This document shows positions 7,698 to 28,007 of a stretch of 33,198 nt of DNA, one piece after another. Source of the stretch: Candolleomyces eurysporus (taxonomy: Eukaryota > Basidiomycota > Agaricomycetes > Agaricales > Psathyrellaceae). The position numbers and the translations under genes were made by a program. The notes beneath the pieces were generated by a model. It was not told the origin of the DNA, made no database searches, and saw nothing but the letters and a program-made list of their open reading frames with translations. Location: positions 1 to 33,198 of the forward strand of contig JANBPK010001556.1 of NCBI GenBank assembly GCA_027579435.1, written 5' to 3'. The number at the start of each line of letters is the position of its first letter. Position 1 is the stretch's first letter.

Positions 7698-8330
7698 GGC
7701 CGTTGATGACAATGAATGAAATCCCCTCTTATCTGCAAAGATATGTTTTCGATCAGTTTGCTACTGTTTACTCTTGCTCTTTATCAGGCTCGAATCAGGC
7801 TTGTCCTTCGAATTCTGCATTCTAAGATTGACTGCAAGATTGACTGCCGAGAGTTCTCGCTTTGACCGTCATTGCGAATGTCTCAACAAGTCCTTTCTGC
7901 ATTCTTAGGTTGCAATCTGCCGAGTGTCCTCCATCAGTACGTCGTCCTCAGCAGGCGTTACTCAAAGCAGCATCGTCACCGATCTGATTCCCTATTGGGA
8001 CAATGGTAGACATACAAAGAAACATTGAGACTGAACGAGCCCATGGGGAGAGAAAAGTCATTGAAACCATCAGGCTGGCAAAGGTGGTATCGAGGTAATT
8101 ATCTCCTGGATCCATCCATGTCATAATATTGCATCGACGCACGTATCTATGAACGTAGGTATAAAGTATCTATGTATTCGAATTATCGGGAAAAGGGGAG
8201 CACTACATTAGCAATAAAATACCACCATTCAGTCATCCATCTTCTCAACCATCCGCCCTCTCTCTCCCCAGCATCAGCTTGAACTCAATTAATCACCAAT
8301 TTCACTGGCCACGAAACCACGAATAAGGTA
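7698..8330. other. Intergenic region between F-box paralogue 4 and LCB1
   Basis: 633 bases between the start of paralogue 4 and the stop of LCB1, both on the - strand. It should contain the promoter of paralogue 4 and the LCB1 3' untranslated region. The 64-codon open frame at 7948-8142 resembles nothing I know and I do not call it a gene. Confidence 0.6.
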
Positions 8331-10334
8331 TCACTTCCTCCTCCCAAGCACCTTCACACAAACCGCCTTAACAACACCCACAGCCTTCTCAATCTCCTTC
8401 CTCGTCAACCCCGCACTAATCGCCAACTTCAAACCAGGTCTGGCCTCAACGTTCTCCTGGCCCCTCAGCCTCTTCGCCTTGGTGACCATAACGTTCTGAC
8501 TAAGACACTCATCCACGATCTCCTGCAGTAAGCGTTCCTCAGCTTCGATAACTTCAGGGTGCAAAAGAAGCTTCTCGTGGTGGTCCCGAGTATGCTTGGT
8601 CGGTGTAAGCATAGCAGCCGAGACAGGGTGCAAACTCCCCGCAGTCGAGGGCGGTGGGGAGAGGGGCGCTGGCGTACCCACCGACGACGAGGACGAAGGC
8701 GAAGAGAGGGCGTTAGAGGTGGAAGCGGCAGGTGAATAAGCAGGCTTGATCTGAATATGAATAAGGGGCGAAGCAGGGTGCGAAGGGATGGTGATATATT
8801 CCACTTTATCCAGGATCGCTCGTGCGGCTCGGACGTTCTCTTGCAGGGTTTCGAAGATGGATGGTGTGCTTCGGAAGATGTTGATCCCTTCGGAGGCGCT
8901 GACGGCGAGTAGAGCGGGCATGGCGGCGGAGAAGACGAAAGAGGGTCCGTTGATCCGCTGTTTCGAGTGTTAGCCAGTGTCAGTGGAAGACTGGAGAGAG
9001 GGAGCGAACCTGATGGTCTACGACGATGTTGGAGCCTGCGCAGAAGCCTCCACCGGCACAGAGACCGATAGCGCATGAACCGATGAGCATGTCAACTTTC
9101 GAGGCCTGGATAGCTAGGCGTTAGTGGGTGTTCGCCAGGCGGACGAGAAAACATACAGGGACGTTATAAATTTCGGTCAAGCCGCGGCCCGTGCGCCCGA
9201 CAGCGCCAAAGGAGTAGCTCTCGTCCAAGAGGAGGCGGTACTTGTACTTGTACTTGAGCTCAATCTATAGAGTTGATGTTAATGAGCTTACTCCAACGGT
9301 CAACGAAACTTCTCTACTCACGATCTTTGGCAAGTCAATCATAGCACCATCCCGTTCGAAGATACCCTCAGTGATGATGAACCGTCTAGTCAACGGGCCT
9401 CTCCTTTTCTTCCTGTCCTTTTCAATGCTTTGCAAAACTGCTTCCAGGCTTTCCAAGTCGTTGTGGTCATACCAACGAACGGTCGAGCGAGAGATCTGGA
9501 TTCCCTTTTGGATGGCGAAGTTTACACCGCGGTCGGCAACGATGATGTCGCCACGCTTGCAGAAGGCGGGGATGACGGAAGAGACGGTGGAGAAACCTTG
9601 AGAGTAGAGGATGGAAGCTTCCGTGCCTAGGAAATCGGCAATGTCGCGCTCCAGGTCCATGTGAACATCTGAAAAAATGGCGAACATGGGTCAGCCTAAT
9701 CTTTCAAGAAATACAGGGGGAGTTACGCACCCAAAGTACCGTAGAAACCAGGTGGACCGCAGCTACCCAGCCCATACTTTCGAAGAGTCTCAACCGCACG
9801 CTCTTTGATGTACTCGTTGCCAGCTAGACCAGCGAAGTTCAGACTGGCAAGGTTAACTGCGGTCTTTCCAGTTGAAACGAGCTTCGGCTTGACGCCGTTC
9901 TGTCCAGCGACGATGGGCAGGGCATGGAGGTCGTACTGTTCAGAGGGAGTAAGAGGAGCGCCGAGTGGTTCAGGGGCCCATTCGTCCACAAGTTCGTCGA
10001 TTTCCTACACACAAACTGTTCATTTCACGGCATGGACCAGGAAATAAGCCACTCATACCTTCTTGTTAAATTGAATAAAATGTGACCCAGTTCGGTCTGC
10101 CCTCGTTCTCGACTGCAACAGGGTGCGAATCGCGAAAACGACCAGGATGAGCTCCAAGATGGTTCTGCCGGGGTCATTCTGGTGGGATGACTTGACGTAT
10201 CGCTGGATTACGGCCGAGCCAGGCAGTTTGTAGAACGTGGTCTCGAGAGTCGTCAAAGCCTGCGCGAGGAAGCTGAATACCGGCTCCAATGTTGAGCTGG
10301 TCGTTGTCGTCGTGAGGTTTATCGTGTCGGCCAT
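8331..10334 (-). CDS. LCB1: Serine palmitoyltransferase subunit 1 (LCB1)
   Basis: Six exons, complement(8331-8957, 9010-9105, 9157-9264, 9322-9668, 9731-10004, 10059-10334), give 575 residues with all phases closing; introns are 51-62 nt. LCB1 pairs with LCB2 in the ER membrane to condense serine with palmitoyl-CoA, the first step of sphingolipid synthesis. Visible features are a membrane segment at about residues 58-74 ([15 protein letters not shown]), the block [14 protein letters not shown] (about 168-181), whose cysteine corresponds to human SPTLC1 C133, DVHMDLE just after it, and [15 protein letters not shown] (about 313-327), where the catalytic partner has its PLP lysine and this subunit, as expected for LCB1, does not. 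An insert rich in Ser, Pro and Thr lies at about 441-487. The start at 10334 gives the usual short lumenal N terminus. A scrambled partial copy lies at 24560-24750. Confidence 0.95.
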
Positions 10335-11244
10335 GGCAGTCGTTCAACGTCGTCTCAGGGTGCTCCGAGTGACTCCCTCGACTCTCGAGGGGATAGAGGG
10401 AGGTGACGAGATGGGAAAGGGAGGGCCGCGGAAAGTTTGCTGGCGGACGCTGGTCGATTTTACGTAAAGCGCAGTTTTCCGTCAGTCCTCGGAGGCCTCG
10501 AACGCCTCTCCTCTTGCCACCATCCATTCAATAGTCTCAACCAGGTCGTATGGGCACCGAGCTATGTCTATCTGAGAATAAAATCGAATAGTTTTTTCGC
10601 TGCCAATTTGTTGCTCCGAAAATGGGACAATGGTCGAGGCAAGGAGGGATGGCAGTAGCCTCCTATAGCCAGACTGGCGCATTTGCTTTCACTCCGTTCA
10701 AGGGAGACATCCATTTCTCTCTACTCAATTTGAAAATATGTTCCCTCACCGGGATCAGGAGACAGGGTCATCTCTATCATCGTTCGGAGTGGTCTTCTTC
10801 GTTCTGAAACCTTGGCCAGACCTTGGTTCTGACCGCGGTATGACCGCCCAAGAATTTGTCCCAAGATCTACGACCCGTTTCGGTTTGCGAGAGGTAGAAA
10901 CAGCGGTCTTGAGACTCAGCCACGAGCTCGTGCCTCACCGCTGCCCCATAGGCTCTGAACGAGCTACTCAAAAGCCATTCACACAGGGAGAGGCTAATCC
11001 TTTGTCTATTCCCGATGTTTCCCCAGGTCGTTGAATCTAGATCTTCAGTGCTCACCTCCGCTGAGGACGAGTCTCCTGTGTGAACCTCCTCTTTCCCGTG
11101 CTCTTGAGAGCGCCCAAAAACACCTGACTGGCGGAGTTTGACTAGCGGAGTTTGGGTGAAACCTGCATCATGCGTCTACGTCCAGATTCCGCAGATTTGC
11201 CCTCTTCCCACACTTTCCACCACTCAGACGCGGTGTTTAGAGAG
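10335..11244. promoter_or_regulatory. Divergent promoter region, LCB1 (-) and intronless F-box gene (+)
   Basis: 910 bases separate the LCB1 start codon from the F-box start codon on the opposite strand, so both promoters must lie here. I see no clear TATA box. The whole region is repeated at about 24752-25610, indicating that the copied F-box gene kept its upstream sequence. Open frames here are short and unsupported. Confidence 0.55.
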
Positions 11245-13134
11245 ATGCCCCCCGCTGGGTTCTTTGACTGCCCGACGGAAATTCGGGATGAGATCCTTTC
11301 GCACTTCCCTATAGGCAATCCTCCTACCCTGCAAGGTCTCCAGCTAGGACTCACTTGCAAAAGCTTATACGAGATCTTGGGACCCGTGATCGTGAAGGTA
11401 CAAGTAGAGCGGCTGCTGGAAGCTACCAAGACGCGCAAGCTTCACTTACACAGGGTCGACCCTTCACCAACGTCCCATCCTCAGGCTGTGCGGGTGGAAA
11501 TTGGATCGGAAGGCTGCGCCTACCACTGGTGCTCAGTCGATACATCATACCGCGATGCTACCATCTATGACCTTTTCTACCGGTCTGATTTAGAGTACGA
11601 CTTTGGTATCACCTACCAGGTGACGTCCGAAGATCAAATCTCGAGTGCCGTCGAGATGTGGTGTCTACACAGTCTACTCTCGCGATCGCAACGATTTCGG
11701 TGCATTCGATTATCCTTACAAGGCCCCCTATTTCGAACAGAAGAAGACAAGACAGTAGCATGCCAGTGGACGAGAGCATTCCTCAAACTCCTCGAAGTCT
11801 GCGCTGAACAGCCAGGGATGGAAATCACGTTTACCGATGCCAGTTCGACTTGGAGGAGTGGCTTTACAAAATTCGAGCGTCTTTTTGTCCAGGAAGGCAC
11901 ACTCCATCTTAAACCATCATTTTTGTCTTCGATCCCATCTTCCCTTCTTAATTTTCTAAGGAAACCTTCAAACATGAACACTACCCGATCTCAGCCGGTT
12001 CTCCAACCAATCGACTTCGTCTTCCCTTCCAAAACGTTCACCAGAAGTCAGTTGTCCCTACTGAAGCTGTCGGGTGGGGGATTATTCAGTCTCCAGTGTT
12101 ATCCTTTCCTCCACCACCTAACTCTCCAGTCCTCCTCAACGCTGACGAGGTTGCATCTCAACCGTTGCACACTTCTGCCGGATGATTGGCGAGCCATGTT
12201 GTCCTGTTGGAAATTTTCTCAACTATCCCATTTCAGTATTCGGGAATCGACGGTACCATTTAATGTTTTGGTTTCATTCTTGCGGTGCCATCCCACCCTT
12301 ACCAATGTTCACCTTTGGGTACACGAAGTCGATGCTCAATCGACCACGGCTCTCATCGACGAGGAGTTTCTCCCCAATGTCCGTCAAATGGTTGCATCCC
12401 CCTCACTTCTAATCCCAATCATGTCGTCCTCCTTATCGTTCTCTTTCGGCTCGACTGTATTCAAGAAGAAATCCGAGATCTTTCCACTCCTCGAAGACTT
12501 GGTGCTTTCGCAAGAACACGATTTTCTCCGCGGGCGCCACGCAGCGCTCAAATTCGAGGACATATCCAAAGTCCTCTCACTGATTGCTGTGCGACGCTGC
12601 CCCACGACCTTGCCCAAATTGCACACATTGTCAATACGTACGGTGTATCAAGCCCAAGAAGCTTTTGAGGGGTGGTTACGTGGTGTCATAGGCTCAGGAG
12701 CAACGGCCGGCAGCTCCTCTTCCTCTTCCTCCTCCGCCGCAGCCTACGCGTCTTACCCAATATTGAATCTTCCCCTTCGCGGCATACCAGAATTCCACAT
12801 TTCCGCATTTTCGGCTCGGTACAATTTCGGGGTCCTCTGCAGGGAACCCACTATGGACGTCGATCCTAACCTCGTCGTGGACTTTGTTGGACGCCCCTTT
12901 GGCCATGGGAGGTCAACGGGCCTTCAGAAAGTAGTCCTGAGTGACATTTTCACTGGCTGTTCGAGATCTGCTATTAGATGGGGGGTTACTTGGCGGGAAG
13001 CGGATAAGATCCCCCCTGCGATTGGACGGATTTGGGAGAGGTGTGGGGATTTGGAGGAAGTTAGGTGTCTTGGGTATGCCACACTCGATCTTAGTGTGGA
13101 GAAGGTCTGGAAGAGGCCTCCAGGGCCACCGTGA
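11245..13134 (+). CDS. Intronless F-box protein, copy A
   Basis: A single 629-residue open frame. The frame is open further upstream, but I chose the ATG at 11245 because the F-box starts just after it (FFDCPTEIRDEILSHFP, then LGLTCKSLYEIL, about residues 5-45) and because in copy B the upstream ATG is followed at once by a stop. The rest resembles LRR-type fungal F-box proteins, with leucine-spaced blocks such as LHHLTLQSSSTLTRLHLNRC and a Ser-rich stretch near residue 520 (codons at about 12714-12740). It differs from the 0-7.7 kb F-box family in sequence and in lacking the intron. By family it is an SCF substrate receptor; the target is unknown. A near-identical copy is at 25611-27522. Confidence 0.85.
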   Translation: MPPAGFFDCPTEIRDEILSHFPIGNPPTLQGLQLGLTCKSLYEILGPVIVKVQVERLLEATKTRKLHLHRVDPSPTSHPQAVRVEIGSEGCAYHWCSVDTSYRDATIYDLFYRSDLEYDFGITYQVTSEDQISSAVEMWCLHSLLSRSQRFRCIRLSLQGPLFRTEEDKTVACQWTRAFLKLLEVCAEQPGMEITFTDASSTWRSGFTKFERLFVQEGTLHLKPSFLSSIPSSLLNFLRKPSNMNTTRSQPVLQPIDFVFPSKTFTRSQLSLLKLSGGGLFSLQCYPFLHHLTLQSSSTLTRLHLNRCTLLPDDWRAMLSCWKFSQLSHFSIRESTVPFNVLVSFLRCHPTLTNVHLWVHEVDAQSTTALIDEEFLPNVRQMVASPSLLIPIMSSSLSFSFGSTVFKKKSEIFPLLEDLVLSQEHDFLRGRHAALKFEDISKVLSLIAVRRCPTTLPKLHTLSIRTVYQAQEAFEGWLRGVIGSGATAGSSSSSSSSAAAYASYPILNLPLRGIPEFHISAFSARYNFGVLCREPTMDVDPNLVVDFVGRPFGHGRSTGLQKVVLSDIFTGCSRSAIRWGVTWREADKIPPAIGRIWERCGDLEEVRCLGYATLDLSVEKVWKRPPGPP

Positions 13135-13590
13135 CCTGGGCGTTAACAGAGTTTTGGACCAAGTACATCCATGCATCAGCGAAATTATGTTCCAATACGG
13201 TCCCAGATTTAGAAGTAAATATACTTGCGTTGGGAGCGTGTTCTGGTTATTGAGGACACAGGTTCTACATGTTGAATCTGTTGGGTCGAGATTTCGTGGA
13301 TAACGGTACAACAGCAGATCGGTCCTCAACATCTTCTAGTGTCCACAACCAGGTGCTACCAACTGGGTTGGAATGCGCCATGAACCCTGCTTATCACAAT
13401 CAAGGGATATTTGCACACAGATGTCAGTCCAAGCTTCTTCAATCATTTGGGCATATCTATTTTCTATATTTTTCTATTTTTCTTTCTATTTCTTTAAGAG
13501 AAAGTAGCTGGGAAAAATGTGTTGATTATTATATAAGCAAAAACCGCTAGAGGGAAGGGAACTGGATCTCTTCCTCAATAACAGGTGAGC
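13135..13590. other. 3' flank of F-box copy A
   Basis: The first ~320 bases match the 3' flank of copy B (27523-27850) and should be 3' untranslated and downstream sequence. After about 13455 the two copies lose similarity and a T-rich stretch begins. No gene was seen. Confidence 0.6.
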
Positions 13591-13599
13591 GTGAGGACA

Positions 13600-14373
13600 A
13601 TATTGTTGACATAGTTGACTACTCAGAGTTCAAAGGAGTTCTGGACAATCTGCCCCATTCAATGTAACCCGAGGCACGTAATATCCACAACAACTGTTCC
13701 TTCTTTGTAGTGAACAGACCCAAGAGCAGCCATATCTGTAGGAGAGCAACCAGCTCTTGAGCAGAGAGTGACAAGGGGAAATTGGCTAGTGAATCGAATT
13801 GGTTGAGGGTGTGTCTGATTGGAATTGACAGAAGGAATTGACCAAGGGTAAGGCTGATACCTCCCACTAGTTTGAGGAGGATGACAATGTTGATGCAAAT
13901 GTACTTGTGGTTGAGCGTCCACTGTGTTCTCAGTGAGAGCAGACACAGGGTAAGGAGTCGAGATTTGTCTGTCAGGCACCAGGTACAAGTAGATGAGGGT
14001 TGATTCTTGAGAACAAGCTAAAGAACTACTGTACAGTTTAGCTCGGTATTTATACTACTTGGGAAATCAGGCTAGTCCAGGCTGGCTCAACTTCTTTGAC
14101 CAGCATCAGTGCTTCTACTGTTCCTACTTGATAACTATTGAGTTCTGTCAATGAATACCAACTACTAATAGTAAAAGCGGGGCAAAGGGGAAAGGTTAAA
14201 GGGCACAGTCAGGGCAAAGGGGCAAAGGGCATAGGGTGTCCTTGGGCTAAGGGTCAAGACTGGGGCAAAGGGAAAGAATAATGTGCTACTAAGGAGATAA
14301 GTCCAAGGGAGTTTGAGTCAAATACAAGTAAACAATAGAAAAAAAAGATACCCTAGGGTTATTACATAACACT
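13600..14373 (-). mobile_element. Probable LTR-retrotransposon fragment (LTR and start of internal region)
   Basis: On the - strand a candidate LTR starts near 14373 with TGTTATGTAATAAC, has a TATA box (GTATAAATACC, near 14046-14056) and runs into a CTCAAGAATCAACC region near 14010. An open frame then begins around 13988 and reads a Pro/Gln/His-rich stretch like the start of a gag protein, continuing in overlapping frames to about 13620. No protease, integrase or reverse transcriptase is present and I found no second LTR, so it would be a truncated relic. Copies of a GGGCAAAGG-like word at 14175-14275 lie in the candidate LTR. The element type is not certain. Confidence 0.4.
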
Positions 14374-15785
14374 AGGTACATAGTCAGGTCCTGGCTGTAT
14401 CTCTCTCTTTACACTCGATATCATCATTCACTTGCATTCCTCTTGTCTCTTGTGTCTGATTCCTCTTTGNCTCCCCNATCTTGAATCATCTCTGACAACT
14501 CCCAAGCCTTCATCGTACTATTGCCCCTACTCTAGGCACTCCGTATCTCTCTGTGCTCCATGTGTTCCTTCTTACCTATCTTGGGTTCTGAAGCTGTCCT
14601 TTGGTCCTCATCCTCATTCCACATCAGTTCACAAATCAGGTTGGCTCTTCAGAAGCCCTCAACCAAGTCATTTGTACTTCCAAATCTGGCAACTGTCATG
14701 TTTAAATGACTTAACAGATTTGCCATCATGTCCTCAAAGCCACAGAGTGCCATTACACCTTCCACTTAGCAAATGTTAGGGCGAATGTCCTTTGTAGTGT
14801 GCATACCCTCTGCCTACACTGTACCTCACCAGGTCAGGTGCGCAGTGATGGTTCTGAATTGTTTCACTACCCTTTGGATACATTCACAGGGCCTTCCTAA
14901 TACAAAGCACTGCTGCCAAACCATTGTACTTGGGTCACTGAGCCAGATCCCTGAGGGCTGCTAAGTCTGAAGCCAGGAATTGCTTCAACTCTCAGTTTTG
15001 CAATGTTCAGAGTTCAGAAGACATGCTATGTTCTGTTTGTCGTTATTGCACCTTAGTACCTTAATTCAGAAGCACTTCCAAAGAAAATTTCTATTGTTTT
15101 GCAATTTTTTTTGAGGGTCTGCAGGCAAGAGCCACTTCACTGTTCAACCCAACAACAATGCTTGACAAAAGAGAACAGTGATCTGGGCCAAAACTGTGAA
15201 TCAAAAAACTGGTTCAGCAGATGTACCTGGTCTTGGTACAATGTACCTGAGTCAAAATGCCTCAGAAAATCTTGTGTAGCACAGATGCAACACTTGGCTT
15301 CTCTCATCATTGGCAGTCTATCATGTTTCCAGAACAGTGTGGCATTGATTGAGCATAGGCTAGTGCATAAGTAAAGAACCCAGAAGCACCAAATACAGAA
15401 AAATTGAGAGGTGTAACATGGGATGAAAGGTAGGTAGTACATCTGGAATAGAAAACCCAGGAACAATAGAACAAGAAGTGCAAAAGAACAAATAGAGATG
15501 AAGGGCAGATACAGATGCTTGATCCAATTGATGGGTGGCAAAACATGCAAAAATGTGATGGCCCAGCTTTGATTGCATGAGGAAGTGTGAACTGGATTGA
15601 GTTTGAGGCCTGATATGATGAACAGTTCAAAGTGTTACAATTAGAGGAACTGTCAATATTTGAGCAAGAGAAAGGGAACACACATGGCCAGTCTTGCAGA
15701 TTGTGTGCTGGGAATGCTGATCATTCCTTTAATTCTTCAACTGTGGCACAGCATCAGTGAAACAAGATCAAAGGCAGAAGAAGAG
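14374..15785. other. AT-richer region without a recognisable gene
   Basis: About 1.4 kb with two Ns (14470, 14477). The longest open frame (15137-15550, -) is Cys- and Phe-rich, resembles no family I know and overlaps another open frame in a second phase, so I do not call it a gene. The right-hand end borders the last inferred exon of the codon-exon gene. Confidence 0.5.
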
Positions 15786-18700
15786 CTACACACATCTTGG
15801 GTTGTCACAAGATAGGTCTTGAATGAGGCAATCAGCCTGGGATGAATTTTCCACAAATGCAGTGAAAAGTTCCTTAGCAATGGATTAGTTGAGTTGCGGA
15901 TCATTCAGATTCCTGAGAAAGTGGACTTACTTCCTATACAATAGATAAGCCAGATGATGAGAAAATCAGGTTCATGAGGAAGTGAACCTACAAGCTATAC
16001 AATGGATGAGGTGAATAGAAAGAAATCAAGGTGCATGATGAAGCAAATTTACTTTCTATACAGCAGATTAACTGAATGGTAAGAAATTCTTGTTGATAAG
16101 GAGACAGACTTACTCTCTATACAACAGATTGGCTGAATGGCAAGAAATTCAGGTTTGTGAGAAAGCAGACTTACTTCCTATACAACAGATGAGCTGCTTG
16201 GCAAGAAATTCAGGTTTGTGAAGAAGCAAACTTACTTGCTATACAACAGATAAGCTGAATGGCAAGGGATTCAGGTTTGTGAGGAAGTAGACTTACAAAC
16301 TATACAAGAGATGAGCCAAATGGCAAAAAATTCAGGGTTCATGAGGAAGAAGACTTACTGCCTATGCAAGAGATGTGCTGAATGGTAAGAAAATCAGGTT
16401 TATGAGAAAGTAAACTTACTGCCTATACAGCAGATGAGCTGAATGGCAAGAAATTTGGGTTCATGAGAAAGCAGACTTACTTCCTATATGACAGATGAGC
16501 AGAATGGAAAGAAATGCAGGTTCATGAAGAAGCACACTTACAAACTTTACAACAAATGAGCTGAATGGCACAAAATTCATGTTAAGGAGGAAGCAGACTT
16601 ACTTGCTGTACAACAGATGAGCCGAACACCAAACACATGAGCAAGCAGACTCACTTCCTATACAACAGATAAGCTGAATAGCAAGAAATTCAGATTCATG
16701 AGGAAGCAGGCTTACAGCCTATATAGCAGATAAGGTGAATCACAAGAAATGCAGGTTCATGAGGAAGCAGACTTACTGCCTTTACAACAGATGAGCTAAA
16801 TGGCAAGAAATTCACATTCACAAGGAAGCAGACCTACATCCTATGCAACAGATAAGCTGAACAGCAAAAAATTCAAGTTTATGGGGAAGCAGACTCACTT
16901 GCTATATAGAAGATGAGCTGAACAGCAAGAAATTTGTGCTCATGAAAAAGCAGACTTACATACTATACAACAGATGAGCTGAATTGCAGGGAATTCAGAT
17001 TTATGAGGAAGCAGGCTTACTCCCTATACAACAGATAAGCCAAATTCCAAGAAATTCAGATTCATGAGTGAGTAGACTCACTCGCTATATAACAGATGAG
17101 CTGAATGGCCAGAAATTCAGGTTCATGAAGAAGCAGACTTACTTCCTATACAACAGATAAGCTGAATGCCAAGAAATTCAGGTTCATGAGAAGGCAGACT
17201 TACTTGCTATGCACCAGATAAGCTAAATGCTAAAAATTCCAAGTTCATGAGGAAGCAGACTTACAAGCTATACAACAGATGACCTAAATGGCAAGAATTT
17301 CAAGTTGATGAACCAGACTCACTTCCTATAAAACAGATCAGTTGAATTGCAAGAAATTCAGCTTCATGAAGAAGCAGACTAACATCCTATACAGCAGATG
17401 AGCTGAACAGCCAGAAATTCAGGTTAATGAGAAAGCAGACTTACAAGCTATACCACAGATAAACAAAATGGCTGGAAATTCAGGTTCTTGAGAAGGCAGA
17501 CTCACAAGCTATACAACAGATGAGCCAAATGGCAAAAAATGCAGGCTCATAAGAAGGCAGACATACTTCCTATACAGCAGATGACCTGAATGGCAAAAAA
17601 TTCAGATTCATGAAGAAGCAGACTTACTTGCTACACAACAGATGAGCTGAATGGAAAGACATTCAGGTTCATGAGGTAGCAGACTTACAAACTATACAAC
17701 AGATGAGCTGAATCCCAAGAAATTCAGGTTCATAAGAAAGTGGACATACCTCCTATACAGCAGATGTGCTGAATGGCAAGAAAGCCAGGGCCATGAGGAA
17801 GCAGACTTACTTGCTATAAAACAAATGAGCTGAATGGCAAGAAATCAAGGTTCATGAGAAAGCAGACTCACACCCTTCACAGTAGATGAGCTGAACAGGA
17901 AAAAATACAGGTTCATGAGGAAGTGGACTTACACCCTATACAGTAGATGAGTAAATGGCAAGAAATTCAGGTTCATGAGGAAGCAGACTCACTTCCTATA
18001 CAGCAGATGAGCTGAATGATAAGAAATCCATGGTTATGAGGAAACAGACTTACATCCTATCCAGTAGATGAGCTCAATGGCAAGAAATTGATGTTCATGA
18101 GGAAGCAGACTTACATCCTTTACAGCAGATGAGATCAATGGCAAGAAATTGATGTTCATGAGGAAGCAGACTTACATCCTTTACAGCAGATGAGCTGAAT
18201 GGCAACAAATTCAGGTTCATGAGGAAGCAGACTTACTTCCTATATGATAGATAAGCTGAATAGAAAGAAATTCAGGTTCATGAGGAAGTAGACCTACAAA
18301 CTATGCAACAGATGAGCTGAATGCCAAGAAATTCAGGTTCATAAGAAAGCAGACTTACAAGCTATACAATAGATGAGCTGAATGCCAAGAAATTTAGGTT
18401 CATGAGGAAGCAGACTTACTTCCTATACAGTAGATAAGCTGAATGGGAAGAAATCTAGGTTCATGAGGAAGTAGACTTACCTCCTATACCACAGAGGAGC
18501 TGAATGGGAAGATATTCAGGTTCATGAGGAAGCAAACATACAAGCTATACAACAGATAAGCTGAATGGGAAGAATTTTAGGTTTATGAGGAAGCAAACTT
18601 ACAAGCTATACAACAGGTAAGCTGAATGGGAAGAAATCCAGGTTCATGAGGAAGCAAACTTACAAACTATACAGCAGATGAGCTGAACGGCAAGAAATTC

Positions 18701-19538
18701 AGGCCCATGAGAAACCAGACTTACATCCTATACAGCAGATGAACTGATTGGCAAGAAATTCAGGTTCACAAGGAAGCAGACTTACTCCCTATACAACCAA
18801 TGAGTTGAATGGGAAAAAATTCAGGTTCATGAGCAAGCAGACCTACGTTCTATACAGCAGATGAGGTGAACGATAAGAAATTCAGGTTTGTGAGGAACCA
18901 AACTTACTTGCTATGCAACCAATGAGCTGAATGGCAAGAAAACCGGGTCCATGACAAAGCAGACTTACATACTATACACAGATGAGCTGAATGGCAAGAA
19001 ATTCATGTTCATGAAGAAGCAGACTCACAAGCTATACAACAGATGAGCTGAATGGCAAGAAATTCAGGTTCATGAAGAAGCAGACTTACATACTATTCAG
19101 CAGATAAGTTGAATGGCAAGAAGTTCAGCTCATGAGGAAGCAGACTCACTCGCTATATAACAGATAAGTGGAATGGCAAGAAATTTGGGTTCATGAAGAA
19201 GCAGACTTACTTCCTATACAACAGATAAGCGGAATGCCAAGAAATTTAAATTTATGAGGAAGCAGACTTACAACCTGTACAATAGATGAGCTGAATGAGG
19301 AGAAACTCAGGTTCATGAGGTAACAGACTTACTTCCTATGCAGCAGATGAGCTGAATGGCAAGAAATTCGGGCTTGTGAGGCACTAGACTTACTTTCTAT
19401 GCAACAGATGAGCTGAATAGCAAGAAATTCAACCAAATAGACGTACGGTCTACTCCGGTCAATGTGTTTGCAACCAAGGTCGTTTATATGCGCATCCAAG
19501 GAATCAGGTACATTGATGCGGATAAATTCAAGCCGCAT
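15786..19538 (-). CDS. Putative gene built of single-codon exons (about 61 exons, ~96 residues)
   Basis: Inferred structure on the - strand: exon 1 at 19538-19512 (ATG, nine codons, MRLEFIRIN, donor GTACCT); one-codon exon ACC at 19449-19447; 58 one-codon exons from 19396-19394 down to 15933-15931, spaced about 61 bases; last exon 15872-15786 (starts ELFTAFVENSS, ends TAG). All joins are phase 0. Every triplet is flanked by AG and GT, and none is a stop. Counted as codons: GAA 12, CTT 8, CAA 7, GAT 6, TTT 5, GCA 3, TAT 3, two each of AAA, GGA, CGA, GAG, GGT, one each of AGA, GCT, AAC, GTT. First bases are G-rich (29 of 58), as in normal codon first positions. The product would be acidic and rich in Glu, Leu, Gln and Asp, starting K-E-V-E-R-Y-L-Y-Q-N after the Thr. 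A phase-2 reading using an exon 19538-19447 is also stop-free. Function unknown; transcription and splicing are unproven. Confidence 0.5.
15873..19446 (-). repeat. Tandem array of ~61-bp units, each a minimal intron plus a variable triplet
   Basis: 58 triplets at about 61-base spacing are flanked by units that read, on the - strand, GTAAGT at the start, CTNAY about 14-18 bases before the end, and TATAG at the end. By eye, GT is kept in 58 of 58 and AG in 58 of 58. The first six bases are GTAAGT in 38, GTGAGT in 9, GTAGGT in 4, GTATGT in 3, GTAAGC in 2, GTAAAT and GTTAGT once each. CTNAY is kept in about 49. Unit lengths vary (for example a 49-nt intron between 16605 and 16655, 55 nt between 17267 and 17323), but the space between AG and the next GT is always three bases. 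The left edge unit (15873-15930) is strongly diverged yet is still 58 nt and keeps GTAAGT, CTAAT and AG. The right edge unit (19397-19446) is 50 nt with GTACGT. Confidence 0.95.
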
Positions 19539-19787
19539 TGTGGATTCCGCAGAGTCAATGAACGAGTGTCAAATCATCCAATCGTCATTCATTAGTGTGA
19601 AGGGCTTTTTGAGAAACAGCACGTTGCACCTACCATGATTTCGCTGGTCCTCAGATGACGAAAATGCATTATTTCGTGCCCTTCCTGGCTTGGACTGTCA
19701 TTTTCGTAATCCTGCTTGGAAGGGAGCGTGAACCGGGTTTGACACCGTCGACTGCACCCTTTATGCTTAGCGCTTCCTCTGCTCTGG
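19539..19787. promoter_or_regulatory. Spacer between ULD gene and codon-exon gene
   Basis: 249 bases between the stop of the ULD gene and the first ATG of the putative codon-exon gene, both on the - strand. A promoter for the latter would have to be here unless the two are co-transcribed. A donor-like ATG-GTAGGT near 19635 could start an upstream non-coding intron. No TATA box is obvious. Confidence 0.35.
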
Positions 19788-20667
19788 TTAAGACGAAGCA
19801 TGTCTTGAAGTTACGCACCAAACAAGCCACCCTTGGTCCAAATATGTTCCAAGTTTCGTCCTTCCACATTTTGGACATATGCCCGTTTTCGCAAAATCCC
19901 TCACCCATTCCCGCTTCACCAACATGCTCATTACCAGCTCCTCCCCCACCAACGCATCACTCCAATCCCGAGCATCGACCAGCGTCCCGTTTGAACGCGC
20001 GATACAATACCGTCTCTCGACAACACGCTCCTCACCTACCTTTCCTTCGAAATGCTTGCTCAAAGTATTGTGAAGGTCCTGTAATGTTAATTTGGGTCAG
20101 GTGCCCGTTGCAAAAGGTTTCAGCGCAATCCTGAAATCATCTCTCACCTCGTACGTGGCGACGATCGACCAAGGGAGAGTGAAAGTTTCGCCTAGCGCGT
20201 CCGTGATGAATACTCCGTTCGCATTGGTGAACCCCATAGCTCGAGGCAGCCTCCTTTGGAGAAGTTGAAGCATCCGTAACAACTCTGCTTCCCGGGCTAC
20301 GACAAATATGGTGCATTTCACGTAGGAACACAATCTACCACTGAAAGACGACTCACATTCTGCCGAGTTGTTATTGTAGACAACCAGGTTGCCTGCCACA
20401 TTGTTGAACGTCGCTCCATGACCAATTGAGAAGTTGCTGCTCTGTGAAAACATCTGAGAGCCGCTCGACGGTGCAGGCTCTGAAAGTGGCGATAGCCTTA
20501 TCAACCAGTCTCTCGCTGCAGAAAAACGACTCACGCTCATCGCCACTGGGCGGATTACCAGTGTCCTTGCCCCGTCGCAGCCTCAGAAATCTTCGGCCCA
20601 ACAGTGGCAGAAAAGCCATGCGCCAGCCCTTGCCCTTCTTCGGAGGTGAATTGCCGGTGCGATCCAT
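19788..20667 (-). CDS. Ubiquitin-like-domain (ULD-type) fungal protein
   Basis: Four exons, complement(19788-20078, 20148-20296, 20357-20479, 20535-20667), give 231 residues; introns are 55-69 nt with GTGAGT or GTGAGA donors, and all phases close. The middle carries NFSIGHGATFNNVAGNLVVY (residues ~54-73), a motif common near the start of Agaricomycete regulatory proteins. From about residue 108 a ubiquitin-like fold of the fungal type follows (FITDALGETFTLPWSIVATYE, then HNTLSKHFEG, RYCIARSNGTLVDARDWSDA), closed by a CPKCG pair of cysteines (about 203 and 206). Members of this family are small proteins of unclear function; a signalling or binding role is inference only. The C terminus may be longer if a GTGCGTAAC donor near 19812 is used. 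It lies just upstream of, and points toward, the codon-exon gene. Confidence 0.7.
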
Positions 20668-22029
20668 GTCAAGACGGCGGTTCGATGGTCGAAGGAGAGA
20701 GAAAAGACACTTNGGGGGAAGCGTGGAAGCGAGGGCAGGTATTGTGACGAAGGGTGGTGTCAGGCACGAGACAGCCTGTAGGTGATAGTGATGTGCGCAA
20801 TCGTTCGATAGATCGAGTAGTTGGGCGCTTATCGCACGATTTGGACCGCGATAAGACTAATCAGATGTCCCAGGGTTTTGGTACTGTGTCCACGGGGACG
20901 AGGAAGACTGACTTATCTATTCATTCTATCCGCTCGATCGGGTATACATACATCGTGAAGGCCCTCATGTTCCCAATCAAGAGTCATGTGAAAGACAGAA
21001 GAGGTATGCAAACCTCAAGGCCTGATGCCATTCCACAGATACTGAGGCTTCCTGATGCCGATCCGAGCGATCGATAGTTAGAGCATAGAGTCAGTCCAGG
21101 AAGTACAGTACACGTTGGAACCTACAGGGAATGACGGACCTTTATGCCGCTCATACCATGATTCCATTTACGGACGGAAGCAAGAGCGGTGGCGGCGACA
21201 TATTCAACAGTGTTGTACAAAGCCCACTAGGAATTCGTTAATCGCCAAGAGAACTACTCAAAAAGAAGAGATAAGTGTGGTAGCCTGAGTATACATAGTC
21301 TTGGGAAAGCGGGGATGACACCAGGCAACCGCTGACCGCCTGATCACCATCGTATTGGGACAGAGCGGTGTAGGGCAACACCTGAGCCTCTGTTGCTGTG
21401 GGCTCGCGTGGTAGTCAGCAGTCGAACCACTGTTTCCAGCGGGCACCGTGCGCACCTACCTAACCACAGCGAGAACGGTGCAGAGCACAATCGAAAGACG
21501 TACTATGATAATCAGGGCTCCAGCTAGAGCATACCCAGTCCGATGCGGCTCCCAATGTATCCCTCCCATTTCCATCCCAGAACTGGTTTTGCATCTCTGC
21601 GGGCCGAAAAATCCGGTCTACGGTTCGTCAGATCGAGTGAATTTTGAAGAGATCTAGTGAGTCAAGAATAAAGAAAACACGCACACCGACGCGTCGGGTC
21701 GTTCCGAGGCGGCAGCGAAAACGCAGGCTGGCGGGGAATTGTTTGCCACTTGCGCGTGTTACCAACCAAACCGTCGCTCATGATAGGTTACTCCTACCTC
21801 TCAGGCCTCATGCGAAAGTGTTCACCTCCACCTTGAATGTATTGCCCCTTCTCGAACCTTTCAACTAGCTTGTTCGAGCTCCGTCCTGAAGTTCTCACTT
21901 CCATGAACTATAGACAACGGGGTCGCCTTCGACTTATACTCACTTTCCTCGAAACATTCAAAGTCCATTGGTACAACTCACAGCACCACCATCCTCTACC
22001 GAACACCCAACTCCCAGAATCCAGAAACT
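20668..22029. other. Region without a supported gene
   Basis: About 1.4 kb with one N (20713). Open frames are short and unlike known families. On the - strand around 21460-21540 one frame reads a hydrophobic run (TGYALAGALIIIV) that could be a membrane segment of a small or decayed protein, but no start, stop and splice sites could be fitted around it. The first 100 bases should include the ULD gene promoter. Confidence 0.4.
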
Positions 22030-23260
22030 ACTGCTCGGTCATTGCGCCAGTCCCGTAAACGACGGCTCCCTCTGCATGCTCCTCTTCCAGTCCCATTCCT
22101 CCGAGAAGAGCGAGGACTTCTACGCTTACCCACCGATCGCCCCGCATTCATCGACGCCGCAGGAGATAGTCTTTCCAGAGGGGGGTTGAAAGCATTGACG
22201 TTGGGAGTGGGATTGGAGCTTTGTAACCTCGTCGTTCTTCCCTNCCCCCCGGCCGTGCCGAACTACGCGTCCTATCAGGAGACAACGTCGTCATGATATT
22301 CAGCCTGGGTCCGCTATATTGGCCATTCATGCTGTTGGAGTGAGTCTACCCTCGCTCACCCCCACCATCGATTCTATCCTCAGCTGATCTCTCTTCTCAG
22401 CGCTGTCGCAGTCAGACTCAAGATCGCCCTCGCGACCAGCACCTCTCTCGAACTCTCTTATCAGTCGACCGACAGGAGAGCACGTATGCTCGTCGTTGCT
22501 CCATCTCACCTCTCCATCACAGTCGAGACGTCCGTAGCCATCCTCAAGGTCTCCGAATCCGGGGCTCGTGCACGTATCTGGGTCATGGCTAGATTGTGGA
22601 ATTGCGATCAGGCTATTGTGATTCAGAGCATCGACGGGCAGGGCGTTTGTTGGGATTCGGGAGGTTGAAGAGTGAGAAGGGATTCGCTGAAGCCCAGGCA
22701 GATGAAGCGGTATACATTTACTACGGCTCTGCTCCAACTGTGAGCTCGTCGTTTTTTCGTCCTAATCTTGCGTTCTTTGGTATGACGTCTGTAGAAAAAA
22801 GCCAAAGGCATTAGGGTACGTACCATGCCTCGCTCCCGTTGAAGCCGGTTCGACTGACAGATATCTGGGAGTCATCTCATCGAGCAGCAGGCTCCATCTT
22901 CAGAATAGCTTGGAAGGTCTCAAATTGACCCGGGCNAAAAAATGACGTCTTGTTGGTTCTTTTACCATTCTACCGCTTCTTCAGTTCGTCTTTTTTAGTC
23001 TCCAACGCGAAACGTTGCTTATTCATGTGGTTTCCAATGACAGGTCTCATCGTACATCTCCATTAGAGTTTCTATCTCGGATTGCCGACAGCTATCGTCG
23101 CATTTCGGGCCAACGGCGTTCTGTCAGGCGATATAAAATACAGAGTCATGATGGCTATGATCGTAACTCTGATCTTACAGGTGTTAGCCTGGCATCCAGG
23201 TAAGCAGTGTTTCTACGTTTGCGTGCTCGAAAACCCTGAGCGATCGCTATGGCCGATGCG
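22030..23260 (+). pseudogene. Decayed acyl-CoA ligase (AMP-binding, 4CL-like) fragment
   Basis: Pieces of an adenylate-forming acyl-CoA ligase can be read in order but in shifting frames: DRPAFIDAAGDSLS (about 22128-22170), GDNVVMIFSLGPLYWPFMLL (about 22280-22337), a possible intron 22342-22400 (GTGAGT to CTCAG), then VAVRLKIALATS, ARMLVVAPS and ARARIWVMA, ADEAVYIYYGSAPT (about 22700-22741), where the family has its Ser/Thr/Gly-rich ATP-binding loop YSSGTTG, and YLGLPTAIVAFR with YRVMMAMIV and QVLAWHP (about 23070-23195). The ATP loop has lost its key residues, in-frame stops occur (for example near 23055) and the C-terminal domain is missing. Two Ns (22244, 22936) may account for part of the frame loss, but not for the stops and the damaged motif. 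Intact relatives activate aryl or fatty acids with ATP and CoA. Confidence 0.65.
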
Positions 23261-23264
23261 ATAA

Positions 23265-24185
23265 ATCAATATCATGAGACTCTTTTCACATTTCGAGTTC
23301 TCGATGGAGTCGTCTTGCGAAAATTGGAGTCTCGATATTTTGGTCAAGTTCAGAGAACTCGTTCCTATCGATTGTCTCCATTGAGCCCACGTCGTATAGC
23401 CTAATACTCTACACATAGATACTTCTCTCATCTTCATTTGAATCATTTCTGAACTCCTTTACATGACGAGCAGGATACCGTTGATTGTCGTTCCCACTAA
23501 TGCAACCGTGGTTGAACAATTTTGGTCGTATAAGATCGTATCAAGCTGCCAGAAGATGTTAATTATCGATTCGTTCTCCTAGTATTCTCCTAGTCAGAGT
23601 AGTGGTATTACTGGCCAAGCTCGACCGCTTTTACTGTACATGATGATTGAGAATCGACAGGTATACGTCCTGATATTCCACCGTCCACCAAGGCCACCAC
23701 GAGCTCCCCGGATGATCCAACCACCACTCCTTCGGATCCATAGCGCTAGTGTGTGCGCCGGGGGCATTCGCCCAGTTTGAAGGAATTGTCGAGGTCTTTG
23801 ACCTGTCCGGGGTCCGACCTGGGTGAAGGCGACTTGAAGTTGTGCGACATCGTAGGCGATATACTTGCTTCGACTTGAGCATTATTATTCTTCCTCTTCG
23901 AGAAGAATTTAAACCATTTAGACAATCGCTACCGTGCACGCTTCTTTGAACCTTTGATGATGGGAGCCGTTGGAAAATCTTCAAGCTTCTCTTCGAAAAC
24001 TTGCGGTATGTTTGCCGCGATACACTGAGGAGGGTCGCCAGGTTATAGAGCAAAGAAATGCCAGATTGGCAATAAGGTACCTGGCAGCTTTTTGAAACCG
24101 TAACTTTGAGCTACCTGCGGGTTTGGTTTTGGCTGACCGGCGAAGGGACTTACATATCGAAAGATTTAACCAATGTTTCGTCAGG
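23265..24185. other. Decayed region with unassigned open frames
   Basis: About 0.9 kb. The first 120 bases may continue the acyl-CoA ligase relic (a frame with FRVLDGVVL). On the - strand, 23631-24053 is open for 140 codons and ends in a Trp-rich stretch (PKEWWLDHPGSSWWPWW); a second - strand frame across the same bases also reads like protein but has stops. I recognise no family and make no gene call. Confidence 0.3.
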
Positions 24186-24189
24186 AGTG

Positions 24190-24545
24190 TCACTTTCTTG
24201 AGTCCGAGGCTTCGCTTTTTATCACGCAGGAGTCACCAACTACAGGTGTGATCGCTGGTCGCCTTCCCCAAACGAGGAAGACTAGGCTTTGGGAGGCGTG
24301 GCCGTGATAGTCTTGGAAATTGAATCACATAAAGGAGGGAGAGCTTTTGTATACTCGGATGTCTGGAGAGAAAGTGCAGGACGTCTGATGGATGTCGGCG
24401 TTTCCGAAATCGAAGTGGTCTGGGGATGGGAGGTTGATTTCCGAGGAGAATTGTTGCCNAAATCTCCCTTGACGCTTCGTACCAAGAGAGAAGTTGCATT
24501 GTCCAGTATAGGTCCGAGAGCAACAAGTCGGATTTCAACAAGAGG
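24190..24545 (-). pseudogene. F-box/LRR family fragment (relic of the 0-7.7 kb family)
   Basis: The - strand reads pieces of the middle of the tandem F-box family: SDLLLSDLYWTMQLLSWYEA for the family's SDMLLSSTMFLDWTIQLFSW block, then PSDVLHFLSRHPSIQKLSLL and PKPSLPRLGK, with a frameshift and an N at 24459 between them. The F-box, the first exon and the C-terminal half are missing. Its 5' side is joined directly to an LCB1 scrap, whereas in the intact locus over 2 kb lie between the corresponding points. Confidence 0.8.
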
Positions 24546-24559
24546 GTCGCTATCTGGGA

Positions 24560-24750
24560 GCAAACCTGGTGGTCAACGACGATGTTGGAGCCTGCGCGGA
24601 AGCCCCCACCGGCGCAGAGACCGATAGCGCATGAGCATGTCGACTTTCTACAGTGGATAACTGGATGTTAGCGGGGTTTCGACTGAACACCAGCTCCAAT
24701 GTTGAAATGGTCGTTCTTGTTGTGAGGTTTATTGTGTCGGCCAGTTGTTC
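24560..24750 (-). pseudogene. Two fused LCB1 scraps
   Basis: Bases 24563-24665 match LCB1 exon 5 and its flank (9010-9115), with a six-base loss near GCGCATGA. Bases 24687-24750 match the start of exon 1 (about 10283-10350), with the start codon deleted (GTCGGCCATGGCAG became GTCGGCCAG). Exons 2-4 and 6 and most of exon 1 are absent, so no product is possible. Confidence 0.85.
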
Positions 24751-25610
24751 AACATCGTCTCAGGATGCTCCGAATGACTCCCTCAACTCTCGAGGTAAAA
24801 GAGGGAAGTGATGAGATGGGAAAGGGAGGACTTTGCGGGCGAACGCTGGTCGATTTTACGTAAAGCAAGGTTTCTCATTCCGTCACTCGGAGGCCTGGAA
24901 CGCTTTTCCTCTTACTACCATCCATTGAATATCCTCGACCGGGTCGTATGGGCACCGAGCCATGTCTGTCCCGGAATATGATCAAATAANTTTTTTGCTG
25001 CCGATTTGTTGCTCCGAAAATATGACAATGGGCGAGGCAGGTAAGGATGGCAGCATCTTCCATTTCACCCTACTAAATTTGAAAATATGTTCCCTCACCA
25101 GGATCAGGAGACAGGGTCATCTTCGTCATCGTTCGGAGTGGTCTTCTTCGTTCTGAAGCCTTCATCAGACCTTGGTTCTGACCGCGGTATGACCGCCCAA
25201 GAATTTATCCCAGGATCCATGGCCAGTTTCCGTTTGCGAGAGGTGGAAACAGCGGTCTTAAGACCCAGGCACGAGGCCTCACCACTACCCCATATGCTCT
25301 GTACGAGGTATCAAAAAACCACTCACGCAGGGAGAGGCTAACCCTTTGTCTATCCCCGATGTTTTCCCAGATTGTTGAATCCAGATATTCAGTGCTCACC
25401 TCCACTGAGGACGAGTCTCATCCCAACAATTTTCTGGGCGAACCTCCTTCTCTTCCCGTGCTCTTGAGAGCGCCCCAAACACCTGACTGGCGGAGTTTGT
25501 GGGTGAGACGTGTGTCATGCGAACCCTTTACAGCATCTAAAGAGTATTCAGATTCCGCAGCTTCGCCCTCTTCCACCCCTTTCCACCACTCAGACGCGGT
25601 ATTTGGAGAG
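24751..25610. promoter_or_regulatory. Duplicated upstream region of F-box copy B
   Basis: 860 bases homologous to 10351-11244, so it should hold the promoter of F-box copy B. It contains an N at 24990. The upstream ATG at 25517 opens a frame of only seven codons, which supports 25611 as the coding start. Confidence 0.55.
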
Positions 25611-27522
25611 ATGNCCCCCCACTGGATTCTTTGATTGCCCAACGGAAATTAGGGACGAGATCCTTTCGTACCTCCCTATAGGCAATCCTCCTACCCTGCA
25701 AGGTCTCCAGCTAGGACTCACTTGCAAAAGCCTATACGAGATCTTGGGACCTGTGATCGTGAAGGCACAAGTCGAGCGGCTGCTAGAAGCTACCAAGACA
25801 TACAAGCTTACACTACACAGGGTCGAACCTTCATCAACGTCCCATCCTCAGGGTGTGCGGGTGGAATTTGGATCGGAAGGCTGCGCTTACCATTGGCGCT
25901 CAGTCGGTGCATCATACAATTCGCCATACCGCGATGCTGTCATCCATCACCTTTTCCACCGCTCTGATTTAGAGTACGACTTTGGTATCACCTACCAGGT
26001 GACGTCCGAAGACCAAATCTCGAGTGCCGTCGAGATGTGGTGTCTACACAGTCTACTCTCGCGATCGCAACGATTTCGGTGCATTCGATTATCCATACAA
26101 GGCCCGCTAATTCGAACAGAAGAAGGAAAGACAGTAGGATGCCAGTGGACCAGAGCATTCCTCAAACTCCTCGAAGTCTGCGCCGAACAGCCAGGGATGG
26201 AAATCACGTTTACCGATGCCAGCTCGACTTGGAGGCGCGGCTTTACGAGATTCAAGCGTCTTTTTGTCCAGGAAGGCACACTCCATCCTAAACCATCAGT
26301 TTTGTCTTTGATCTCATCTTCCCTTCAAAATCTTCGAAGGAAACCTTCGAGCATGAACACTACCCCATCTCAGCCGGTTCTCCAACCAATCGATTTCGTC
26401 TTCCCTTCCGAAACGTTCACCAGAAGTCAGTTGTCCCTACTGAAGCTGACGGGTGGGGGATTATTGTTCAGTCCCTCGTGTTATCCTTTCCTCCACCACC
26501 TAACCCTCCAGTCCTCCTCAACGCTGACGAGGTTGCATCTCAACCGTTGCACACTTCTGCCGGATGATTGGCGAGCCATGTTGTCCTGTTGGAAATTTTC
26601 TCAACTATCCCATTTCAGTATTCGGGAATCAACGGTACCGTTTAATGTTTTGATTTCATTCTTGCGGTGCCATCCCACTCTTACCAATGTCCACCTTTGG
26701 GTACACGAAGTCGATGCTCAATCGACCACGGCTCTCATCGACGATAAGTTTCTCCCCAATGTCCGCCAAATGGTCGCATCTCCCCCACTCCTAATCCCAA
26801 TCATGTCGTCCTCCTTATCGTCCTCTTTCGGCTCGACTGTATTCAAGAAGAAATCCGAGATCTTTCCACTCCTCGAAGACTTGGTGCTTTCGCAAGAACA
26901 CGATTTTCTCCGCGGGCGCCAGGCAGCGCTCAAATTCGAGGACATATCCAAAGTCCTCTCACTGGTTGCTGCGCGACGCTGCGACACGACCTTGCCCAAA
27001 TTACACACATTGTCAATACGTACGGTGTATCAAGCCCAAGAAGCTTTTGAAGGGTGGTTACGTGGTGTAATAGGCTCAGGAGCAACGGCCGGCAGTTCTT
27101 CTTCCTCTTCCTCCTCCGCCGCCTACGCGTCTTACCCGATATCAAATCTTCCCCTTTGCGGCATACCAGAATTCCACATTTCCGCATTTCCGTCTCGGTA
27201 CTATGACAAAAGCATTGACCTATGCATGGAACCCACCATGAACGTCGATCCTAACCTCGTCGTGGACTTCGTCGTGCGCCTCTTTGGCCATGGGAGGTCA
27301 ACGGGCCTTAAGAAAATAGTCCTGAGCGACATTTTCACCGGCTGTTCTACCTTCCGAGTTGATGGAGGGAAGGTTATATGGCGAGAAGCGGATAAGATCC
27401 CCCCTGCGATTGAACGGATTTGGGAGAGGTGTGGAGATTTGGAGGAAGTTAGGTGTCTTGGGTATGCCAGACTTGATCTTAGCGAGGAAAAGGTTTGGAA
27501 GAGGCCTCCGGGGCCACCGTGA
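25611..27522 (+). CDS. Intronless F-box protein, copy B
   Basis: Paralogue of the gene at 11245-13134, with 636 residues once the N at 25614 is skipped. After ATG the copy has N plus six Cs where copy A has six Cs, so the N is an added pad. The F-box (FFDCPTEIRDEILSYLP, LGLTCKSLYEIL) follows the start directly. Most of the protein is close to copy A, including the Ser-rich stretch. Differences cluster in four places: a four-residue insertion after residue ~115, an altered loop around 26466-26480, a changed block at 27201-27232 and a changed block at 27346-27375. The frame is otherwise open, so the copy is likely still functional or recent. By family an SCF ubiquitin-ligase substrate receptor of unknown target. 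Confidence 0.8.
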
Positions 27523-28007
27523 CCTGGGCGTTAGCAGTGTTTCGGACCAAGTACATACAAACATCAGCGAAATTATTCTCTATTACGGTCCCAGATCTAG
27601 AAGTAAATGTGCTTGCGCTAGGGAGTGTGTTCCGGTTATTGTTTACAAGGGTTCTACTTTTCGGACCTGTTGAGTCAATATTCCGTGGATGGCGGTACAA
27701 CAATAGATCGGTCCTTCCTAATGCTCAACGTCTTCTAGTGTCCACAGCCGAGTGCTACCGACTGGAATGCGCCATGAACCCCGATTGACATGATCAAGGG
27801 ATATTTGCACACGGATGTCACAGTCCAGGCTTCTTCAATCATTCGGGCGTATTTCCCGCTGCGTGTCTCTTGATCTGAACTTCTCAACGTCAGCTGCCTT
27901 GCTGCCTTTCCCCAGCTTGTGTATCTTCATGCCGGCCTTTGGCCTGTCTACTTGGATCCCATATAAGAGAAGTACTCACCTGAACGCGACGTGCATCTCA
28001 GGCTGCC
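27523..28007. other. Spacer between F-box copy B and carboxylesterase 1
   Basis: The first ~330 bases are the duplicated 3' flank of the F-box gene; the last ~155 bases are unique to this copy and form the carboxylesterase promoter. No gene was seen. Confidence 0.6.
27959..27968 (+). promoter_or_regulatory. TATA-box candidate for carboxylesterase 1
   Basis: CCATATAAGA lies about 45 bases before the ATG at 28008, a reasonable place for a TATA element if the leader is short. Judged on position and sequence only. Confidence 0.45.

Follow-up and report, generated by a model that had tools for sequence, protein, structure and literature searches.

One-codon exons between near-identical mini-introns: a predicted architecture in a gene family of Candolleomyces eurysporus

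Several described gene systems contain very small exons or multiplied introns. Schistosome micro-exon genes (MEGs) have 10 to 20 exons per gene, in most cases multiples of three and mostly of 15 bp (6 to 81 bp; 3 to 81 bp in the abstract), separated by introns of 0.1 to 5 kb (PMC10526429). Aphid bicycle genes have ~17 exons on average, of phase 2, and megacycle has >100 microexons encoding ~2000 residues (PMC9168663). Isolated exons of 3 bp and 1 nt, the latter with read support, were reported in homothorax of Drosophila (PMC7392893) and CYP621A of Fusarium (PMC12940212), respectively. At the ratchet points of recursive splicing, an acceptor and a donor lie back to back and the donor is regenerated at each step (PMC8605326), and introner-like elements and stwintrons are near-identical introns that have multiplied in fungal genomes (PMC4457414, PMC8469720). 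We analyzed a stretch of 33,198 nucleotides (the window) that makes up contig JANBPK010001556.1 (C550) in the 65.9-Mb, 1296-contig assembly of Candolleomyces eurysporus, a member of a Psathyrellaceae genus of the order Agaricales (PMC11277608). The window contains a 61-bp repeat that we consider likely to be an array of 59 one-codon exons between spliceosomal introns of ~58 nt, predicted to encode the C-terminal tail of a ubiquitin-like/zinc-ribbon protein.

Comparison with the described systems showed partial similarities to each of them. Like the schistosome MEGs, the predicted genes form a family, have serial tiny exons in multiples of three, and are difficult for automatic annotation. As a gene model, the locus has a long unbroken series of tiny exons, with 59 steps in one open frame. 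However, its array exons are 3 nt long with up to 59 in succession, and its near-identical introns are only ~58 nt (49 to 65 nt in the family), which places it outside the MEG size range. With bicycle and megacycle genes it shares many microexons of one phase and a rapidly evolving product, but each exon contributes one residue as opposed to about 20 in megacycle, and its junctions are in phase 0 instead of the phase 2 of internal bicycle exons. In addition, its introns form a repeat array, a feature not mentioned for megacycle in the accessible text (PMC9168663). The isolated exons of 3 nt and 1 nt indicate that spliceosomes can include such sizes, although as single events, whereas a run of them would split a whole protein region here. 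Ratchet points leave no exon, whereas a codon would be left at each of the 59 predicted steps, and they were described in long introns rather than in introns of ~58 nt. Introners are scattered over many genes, whereas the high-identity intron copies found here were confined to array-locus contigs among the matches listed. A search of the open-access literature, judged by titles and abstract openings, gave no description of runs of one-codon exons. In a strict view, the architecture could be called an extreme variant of micro-exon genes.

Tandem Repeats Finder (TRF) placed the repeat at 15903 to 19431, with a period of 61, 58.1 copies and 78% matches. Parsed on the minus strand from 19449 to 15931, the region consisted of 59 successive AG-NNN-GT steps, namely an ACC triplet followed by 58 others, all 58 of which had the complete AG-NNN-GT form. 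The 58 triplets were of 16 kinds (17 with ACC), and none was a stop against 2.9 expected in the window alone. The 57 introns between the 58 triplets measured 49 to 59 nt, with 51 of exactly 58 nt; therefore, no array unit is hidden or skipped in a gap. A strict chain search with fixed rules found 59 steps on the minus strand of the array and 0 on its plus strand, and the longest chain in the control regions (1 to 15000 and 20000 to 33198 of the window) was ≤2. The original prediction had claimed a ~61-bp repeat read on the minus strand, 59 one-triplet gaps of 17 kinds without a stop, and a phase-0 join to a stop-terminated downstream exon. All of these were confirmed, the gaps occurring beyond chance in the chain search and the join giving one open frame through the last exon.

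We then looked at the whole genome, in which a pattern made from one unit gave 245 matches. Twenty-nine loci were collected by the unit pattern, further paralogs by the protein encoded by exons 4 and 5, and the locus on C1229 by intron DNA. Among the 39 paralog loci including the window (a count that excludes five weak exon 4-5 protein matches, C82 twice, C222, C469 and C221:52330), 33 carried the 61-bp array family and 2 carried other arrays (L043, and L047 with L049), while L041 was cut by a contig end. No array was found in the 1.6 to 2.8 kb examined at the remaining three (L044, L045 and L048). The predicted one-codon array is a trait of a gene family, not of a single gene. The intron DNA itself gave 363 matches in the genome, and each among the matches listed sat on an array-locus contig; dispersed introners were rejected as an explanation, with no copy outside the array contigs among the best matches listed. 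For single-codon arrays outside this gene family, a search restricted to a CAG...GTAAGT pair pattern gave 23 matches, one of which (C1004) was outside the array loci (control, 4).

The family totals refer to 32 loci with 343 junctions, from which L046 was excluded, since its 34 junctions had been picked by a pattern requiring a 3-nt gap. The score of each junction covered the 12 nt preceding and the 9 nt following the gap, whose length was left free from 0 to 8 nt, and 3 nt was the best length in 339 of the 343. Of the other four, those in L018, L026 and L032 read AG-NNN-GT on inspection and the one in L014 reads NGAT, which contains an N; thus, 342 of 343 junctions were resolved to exactly 3 nt, and none had the zero-length gap of a ratchet point. 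Applied to L046, this scoring returned 3 nt for 29 of 30 junctions, and the remaining one resolved to CAG-GAA-GT. The acceptor was AG in 340 of the 343 junctions, and the donor was GT in 339 and GC in 3. No stop was found in the 333 clean triplets (10 triplets containing N were dropped), as opposed to 18.6 expected from the position-wise base frequencies, and inclusion of L046 raised the totals to 377 junctions and 367 triplets, still with 0 stops. The dinucleotides AA, AG and GA occupied positions 2 and 3 in 159 of 282 triplets starting with A, C or G, but in 0 of the 51 that begin with T (Fisher 9e-17; 0.005 for the window alone). Stops and gaps of other lengths were looked for in the related arrays of these 32 loci of the same genome, and apart from the one N-bearing junction there were none. 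The introns were less regular, with a net indel in 61 of 305, of which 48 were not a multiple of 3.

Constraint within the unit was position-specific. In 244 standard-length units, the GT and AG columns showed 1, 3, 1 and 0 substitutions versus 24 per column on average, and their diversities (0.01, 0.02, 0.01 and 0.00) were the four lowest of the 58 intron columns. The eight splice-signal columns (intron positions 1, 2, 5, 6, 46, 47, 57 and 58, of which 46 and 47 were chosen after the diversity table had been viewed) had a mean diversity of 0.03 versus 0.18 for the other intron columns (highest 0.40; p 6e-6). We take positions 46 and 47, the AT of CTCAT, to be the branch site from general knowledge of fungal introns; column 38 was as low in diversity as these putative branch-site columns. 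The triplet positions were the most variable of the unit, with diversities of 0.71, 0.64 and 0.58. Of the 333 triplets, 298 had A or T as the third base, versus 60% in the last exons, and NTA triplets, which would form TAG before the T of the donor, numbered 6 versus 72 NTT. In the same set, C stood at the third position in 6 of 333 triplets, and AA, TT and GA were favored at positions 2 and 3. These last two preferences would be accounted for only partly by selection against TAG or CAG acceptors newly formed at the end of the exon.

The two paralogs with other arrays were informative. L043 (C1160) has a 69-bp period and a different intron (GTGAGTCACTTTGATG...GTTGTCCAG), for which homology with the 61-bp family found no support (p 0.076). 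It contains a strict AG-NNN-GT chain of 9 that would encode RYRLRMLKW. Six introns of L043 were 84% alike and its triplets 27%. In the L047 and L049 pieces (C234), TRF reported no repeat, and the mean intron identity was 0.74 versus 0.71 for shuffled introns. Nevertheless, 11 successive strict AG-NNN-GT steps were present (8 in L047 and 3 in L049), whereas 500 dinucleotide shuffles gave ≤2; inspected by eye, the run reaches ~20 steps and includes a few decayed sites (donor GTCCAT, acceptor AA). In both L043 and L047/L049, an FRH- or FCH-type exon leads into the array, and by eye the arrays finish with K-W before the last exon. Judging from these sequences, L047/L049 is an older paralog in which the repeat has dissolved and the predicted one-codon architecture is kept, and it is the strongest single argument for reading the triplets as exons. 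A plain satellite without position-specific constraint was rejected, given the low diversity of the splice columns, the high diversity of the triplets and the steps retained in this old paralog.

In the longest in-register comparison, the triplets were more conserved than the introns. L026 and L046 aligned in register over 34 units, and their triplets differed at 7 of 102 sites (6.9%) versus 259 of 1563 (16.6%) in the intron interiors (p 0.0076). Thirty-one of the 34 residues were identical, and 2 of the 5 changed codons were synonymous. This pair bears on a reading in which most transcripts leave out varying subsets of genuine one-codon exons, so that the array would generate in-frame tail variants and not one fixed tail. 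The near-identical introns, the equally strong sites, the preservation of the frame by any pairing, and the differences between the arrays of close paralogs all favor it. However, the 31 of 34 residues kept in order between L026 and L046 suggest that a defined sequence matters, and we regard this reading as rather unlikely.

The predicted gene has 65 exons on the minus strand, from an ATG at 20667 to a last exon ending at 15786, in one frame of 348 codons plus a stop (Table 1). The frame stays open from exon 5 through ACC and the 58 triplets into the last exon, and all array junctions are in phase 0 with both flanking exons. The ULD_2 match (PF22893) scored 58.6 bits versus a curated cut-off of 24.5 and covers residues 111 to 190 of the joined model; the upstream exons also encode a CxxC..CxxC zinc ribbon. 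Seventeen related proteins were retrieved from the database, 3 from C. eurysporus and 14 from five other species, of which 8 were inspected. Four relatives from Ephemerocybe and Coprinellus extend past the ribbon, fix the exon joins by reading GWRVCRRC, and end 12 to 50 residues beyond FRHVR (FRHVQ in P0008); in the window, the counterpart motif HFRHLRTSEIM leads straight into the donor at 19633. The last 15 codons of exon 5 were under strong purifying selection, with a synonymous fraction of 0.60 versus 0.19 under neutrality. Alignment between exon 5 and the array covered 27 copies, the other 5 of the 32 loci having been missed by the exon motif search. The motif of the last exon occurred in 29 of 32 loci and the in-frame exon in 28, and in 12 of these 28 the codon after the RC(V/L) site is not a stop and the frame continues.

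Table 1. Predicted exons and introns of the array gene, with positions in the window
Feature	Position	Strand	Basis
Exon 1, ATG at 20667	20535..20667	-	Start agrees with annotated partial protein P0001 (H1R20_g15362); in-frame join
Exon 2, GATFNNVAGNLVV region	20357..20479	-	Homologous proteins and in-frame join
Exon 3, ULD_2 ubiquitin-like domain begins	20148..20296	-	Pfam PF22893, E 7.1e-16, joined model
Exon 4, remainder of ULD_2 and CPKCG half of zinc ribbon	19819..20078	-	Pfam and related proteins
Exon 5, CRRC half of zinc ribbon to ...HFRHLRTSEIM	19634..19751	-	Acceptor fixed by homologues reading GWRVCRRC
184-nt intron before array, donor GTAGGT	19450..19633	-	Donor GT[AG][AG]G[TC] in 27/27 aligned copies
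First predicted one-codon exon, ACC (Thr)	19447..19449	-	NNN between AG (26/27 aligned copies) and GT (26/27; GC 1/27)
Array, 58 predicted one-codon exons and 57 introns of 49-59 nt, peptide KEVERYLYQNGDFLLEELFEDDDEGGQEFQELLDELQERGYQDAAEQFEAAFQERKLE	15931..19396	-	TRF and junction parsing
Last intron, 58 nt	15873..15930	-	57-59 nt in 22/28 copies having the in-frame last exon
Last exon ELFTAFVENSSQADCLIQDLSCDNPRCV and stop	15786..15872	-	Phase 0 with array; RC(V/L) here in 24/28 copies

The predicted tail includes a tryptic peptide of 16 residues from 16 predicted exons, GYQDAAEQFEAAFQER. The tail of the window has a net charge of -15, 64% helix-favoring residues and a helical (amphipathic) periodicity (p 0.0055). 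Searches of the PDB and Pfam with the tail gave nothing significant, only weak matches with E ≥ 0.03. The predicted tail is probably helical and fast-evolving, and is strongly acidic in the window.

Other placements of the array in the gene were also considered. The array could be a satellite within one ~3.8-kb intron, with its donor at 19633 and its acceptor at 15873, that is removed whole, the internal sites being relics. The outer donor and acceptor are likewise in phase 0, but relics would not preserve GT and AG, exclude stops, or hold exact triplets after the repeat has become unrecognizable, and this reading is improbable. It is very improbable that translation reads through the donor and the protein ends just after exon 5 (TSEIMVGATCCFSKSPSH stop), or that it ends earlier as in P0001, leaving the array in the 3' untranslated region or outside the transcript. 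A Coprinellus micaceus relative (P0013) does end 10 residues past FRHVRTSQVK, and P0001 ends before exon 5; however, all 27 aligned copies keep the donor, the sequence behind it carries many indels, and an untranslated array would have no reason to avoid stops. The separate 96-residue gene of the original prediction, starting from an ATG at 19537 with the array as its middle, is hardly credible: the ATG and a possible GT are present, but the region between exon 5 and the first triplet is rich in indels in the 27 aligned copies, by eye the donor and the frame of the ATG are not kept, and the array joins in phase 0 to the longer gene. The core of that prediction, a coding sequence split into single codons, was upheld by the constraint, the stop-free 3-nt gaps, the paralogs and the L026/L046 triplets, while its gene size and start gave way to a ULD_2/zinc-ribbon gene beginning at 20667.

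Several points weigh against the interpretation of the triplets as one-codon exons. As the junction profile rewards AG and GT, it under-counts lost sites in loci outside the window; because the units are related, tests that treat them as independent overstate significance. Many arrays outside the window are short (3 to 16 units) and several contain Ns; the short-read assembly may have collapsed them, and their unit numbers are lower bounds. In L026 versus L031, compared over 11 units, the triplets did not evolve more slowly than the introns (5 of 33 versus 65 of 461 differences, p 0.80), and this pair and L026/L046 were both noticed through their similar peptides, which biases them toward conserved triplets. 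The last exon showed no purifying selection (synonymous fraction 0.217 versus 0.240 under neutrality), and it was selected with the frame as a condition. The deposited model P0001 departs from exon 4 early, stops before exon 5 and misses the array. The intron before the array, at 184 nt, is longer than the array introns. The amphipathic periodicity was not significant in the L026, L033 and L046 tails. Finally, the original prediction had proposed that the peptide be sought as a continuous open reading frame (ORF) in relatives, and no homologue of the tail was found among 5.77 billion proteins.

The triplets and introns of the array seem to have different histories. Triplets differed by 0.63 per site in the 97 unit pairs with 0 of 56 flanking differences, as compared with 0.67 in the most distant bin. 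Growth by tandem duplication of an intron plus codon followed by mutation was therefore unsupported, as triplet identity was independent of flank similarity. Adjacent identical triplets were slightly in excess (27 versus 19.3, p 0.033), and adjacent introns shared few variants (14% versus 7% for random pairs); when linkage between intron halves was set against linkage across triplets, the signal was weak. A true unit duplication was recognized by eye in GAT GAT GAT at 18178-18056, and such cases are few. Since triplet identity is not linked to intron similarity, the introns seem to have multiplied separately from the codons. The pattern would be consistent with introns made almost simultaneously as copies of a single sequence, the codons being left out of the copying. 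Introns inserted between codons already present would account for the independence, though not for a spacing of exactly 3 nt. Over 260 nt behind the array, L031 and L034 are identical while their last triplets differ, which suggests exchange between loci, although a chimeric assembly could look alike.

Two further features were noticed at the array loci. In L029 (reverse complement, ~4850-5010), an unrelated stretch (CTTTGGTACTACGGGG...) breaks an array intron in the manner of a mobile-element insertion. The downstream flanks of L010, L016 and L018 have ~290 bp in common, in inverted orientation behind the genes, perhaps a mobile element.

Elsewhere in the window, a row of several related ORFs lies at 154-7738, with single assembly Ns; one of them, at 2732-3577 (-), is F-box-like (PF12937, E 3e-9). 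Two long plus-strand ORFs at 11152-13134 and 25510-27522 encode nearly the same protein (TEIRDEILS...), and the former had no Pfam match. Carboxylesterase (PF00135) genes or pieces lie in opposite orientation at 29052-29912 (+) and 31755-32840 (-), and an aminotransferase class I/II exon (PF00155) at 9265-9687 (-) presumably belongs to a serine palmitoyltransferase subunit.

If the triplets are exons, recognition would span each array intron (intron definition), since an exon of 3 nt has no room for U2AF/U2 and U1 simultaneously. Removal would probably be stepwise, each ligation bringing the following GTAAGT up against the end of the growing exon, and would resemble ratchet-type recursive splicing with one codon left per step. 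As every junction is in phase 0, any donor-acceptor pair keeps the frame; skipped units would shorten the tail and leave the protein otherwise intact. A fuller reading, to which we give about an even chance on the present sequence comparisons, is that this family splits part of its coding sequence at every codon, that the introns multiply as units of their own between codons that do not travel with them, and that the phase-0 array builds the tail residue by residue, skipped subsets remaining in frame.

Work on exon size limits, intron definition and recursive splicing has usually addressed single sites. With 59 consecutive predicted 3-nt exons and tens of paralogs in old and young versions, this family would make step order, fidelity and skipping directly measurable. 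If the reading is true, intron gain would have run to saturation here, with one intron per codon and with codons and introns evolving separately, and the arrays would represent a class of coding sequence overlooked by the deposited gene models.

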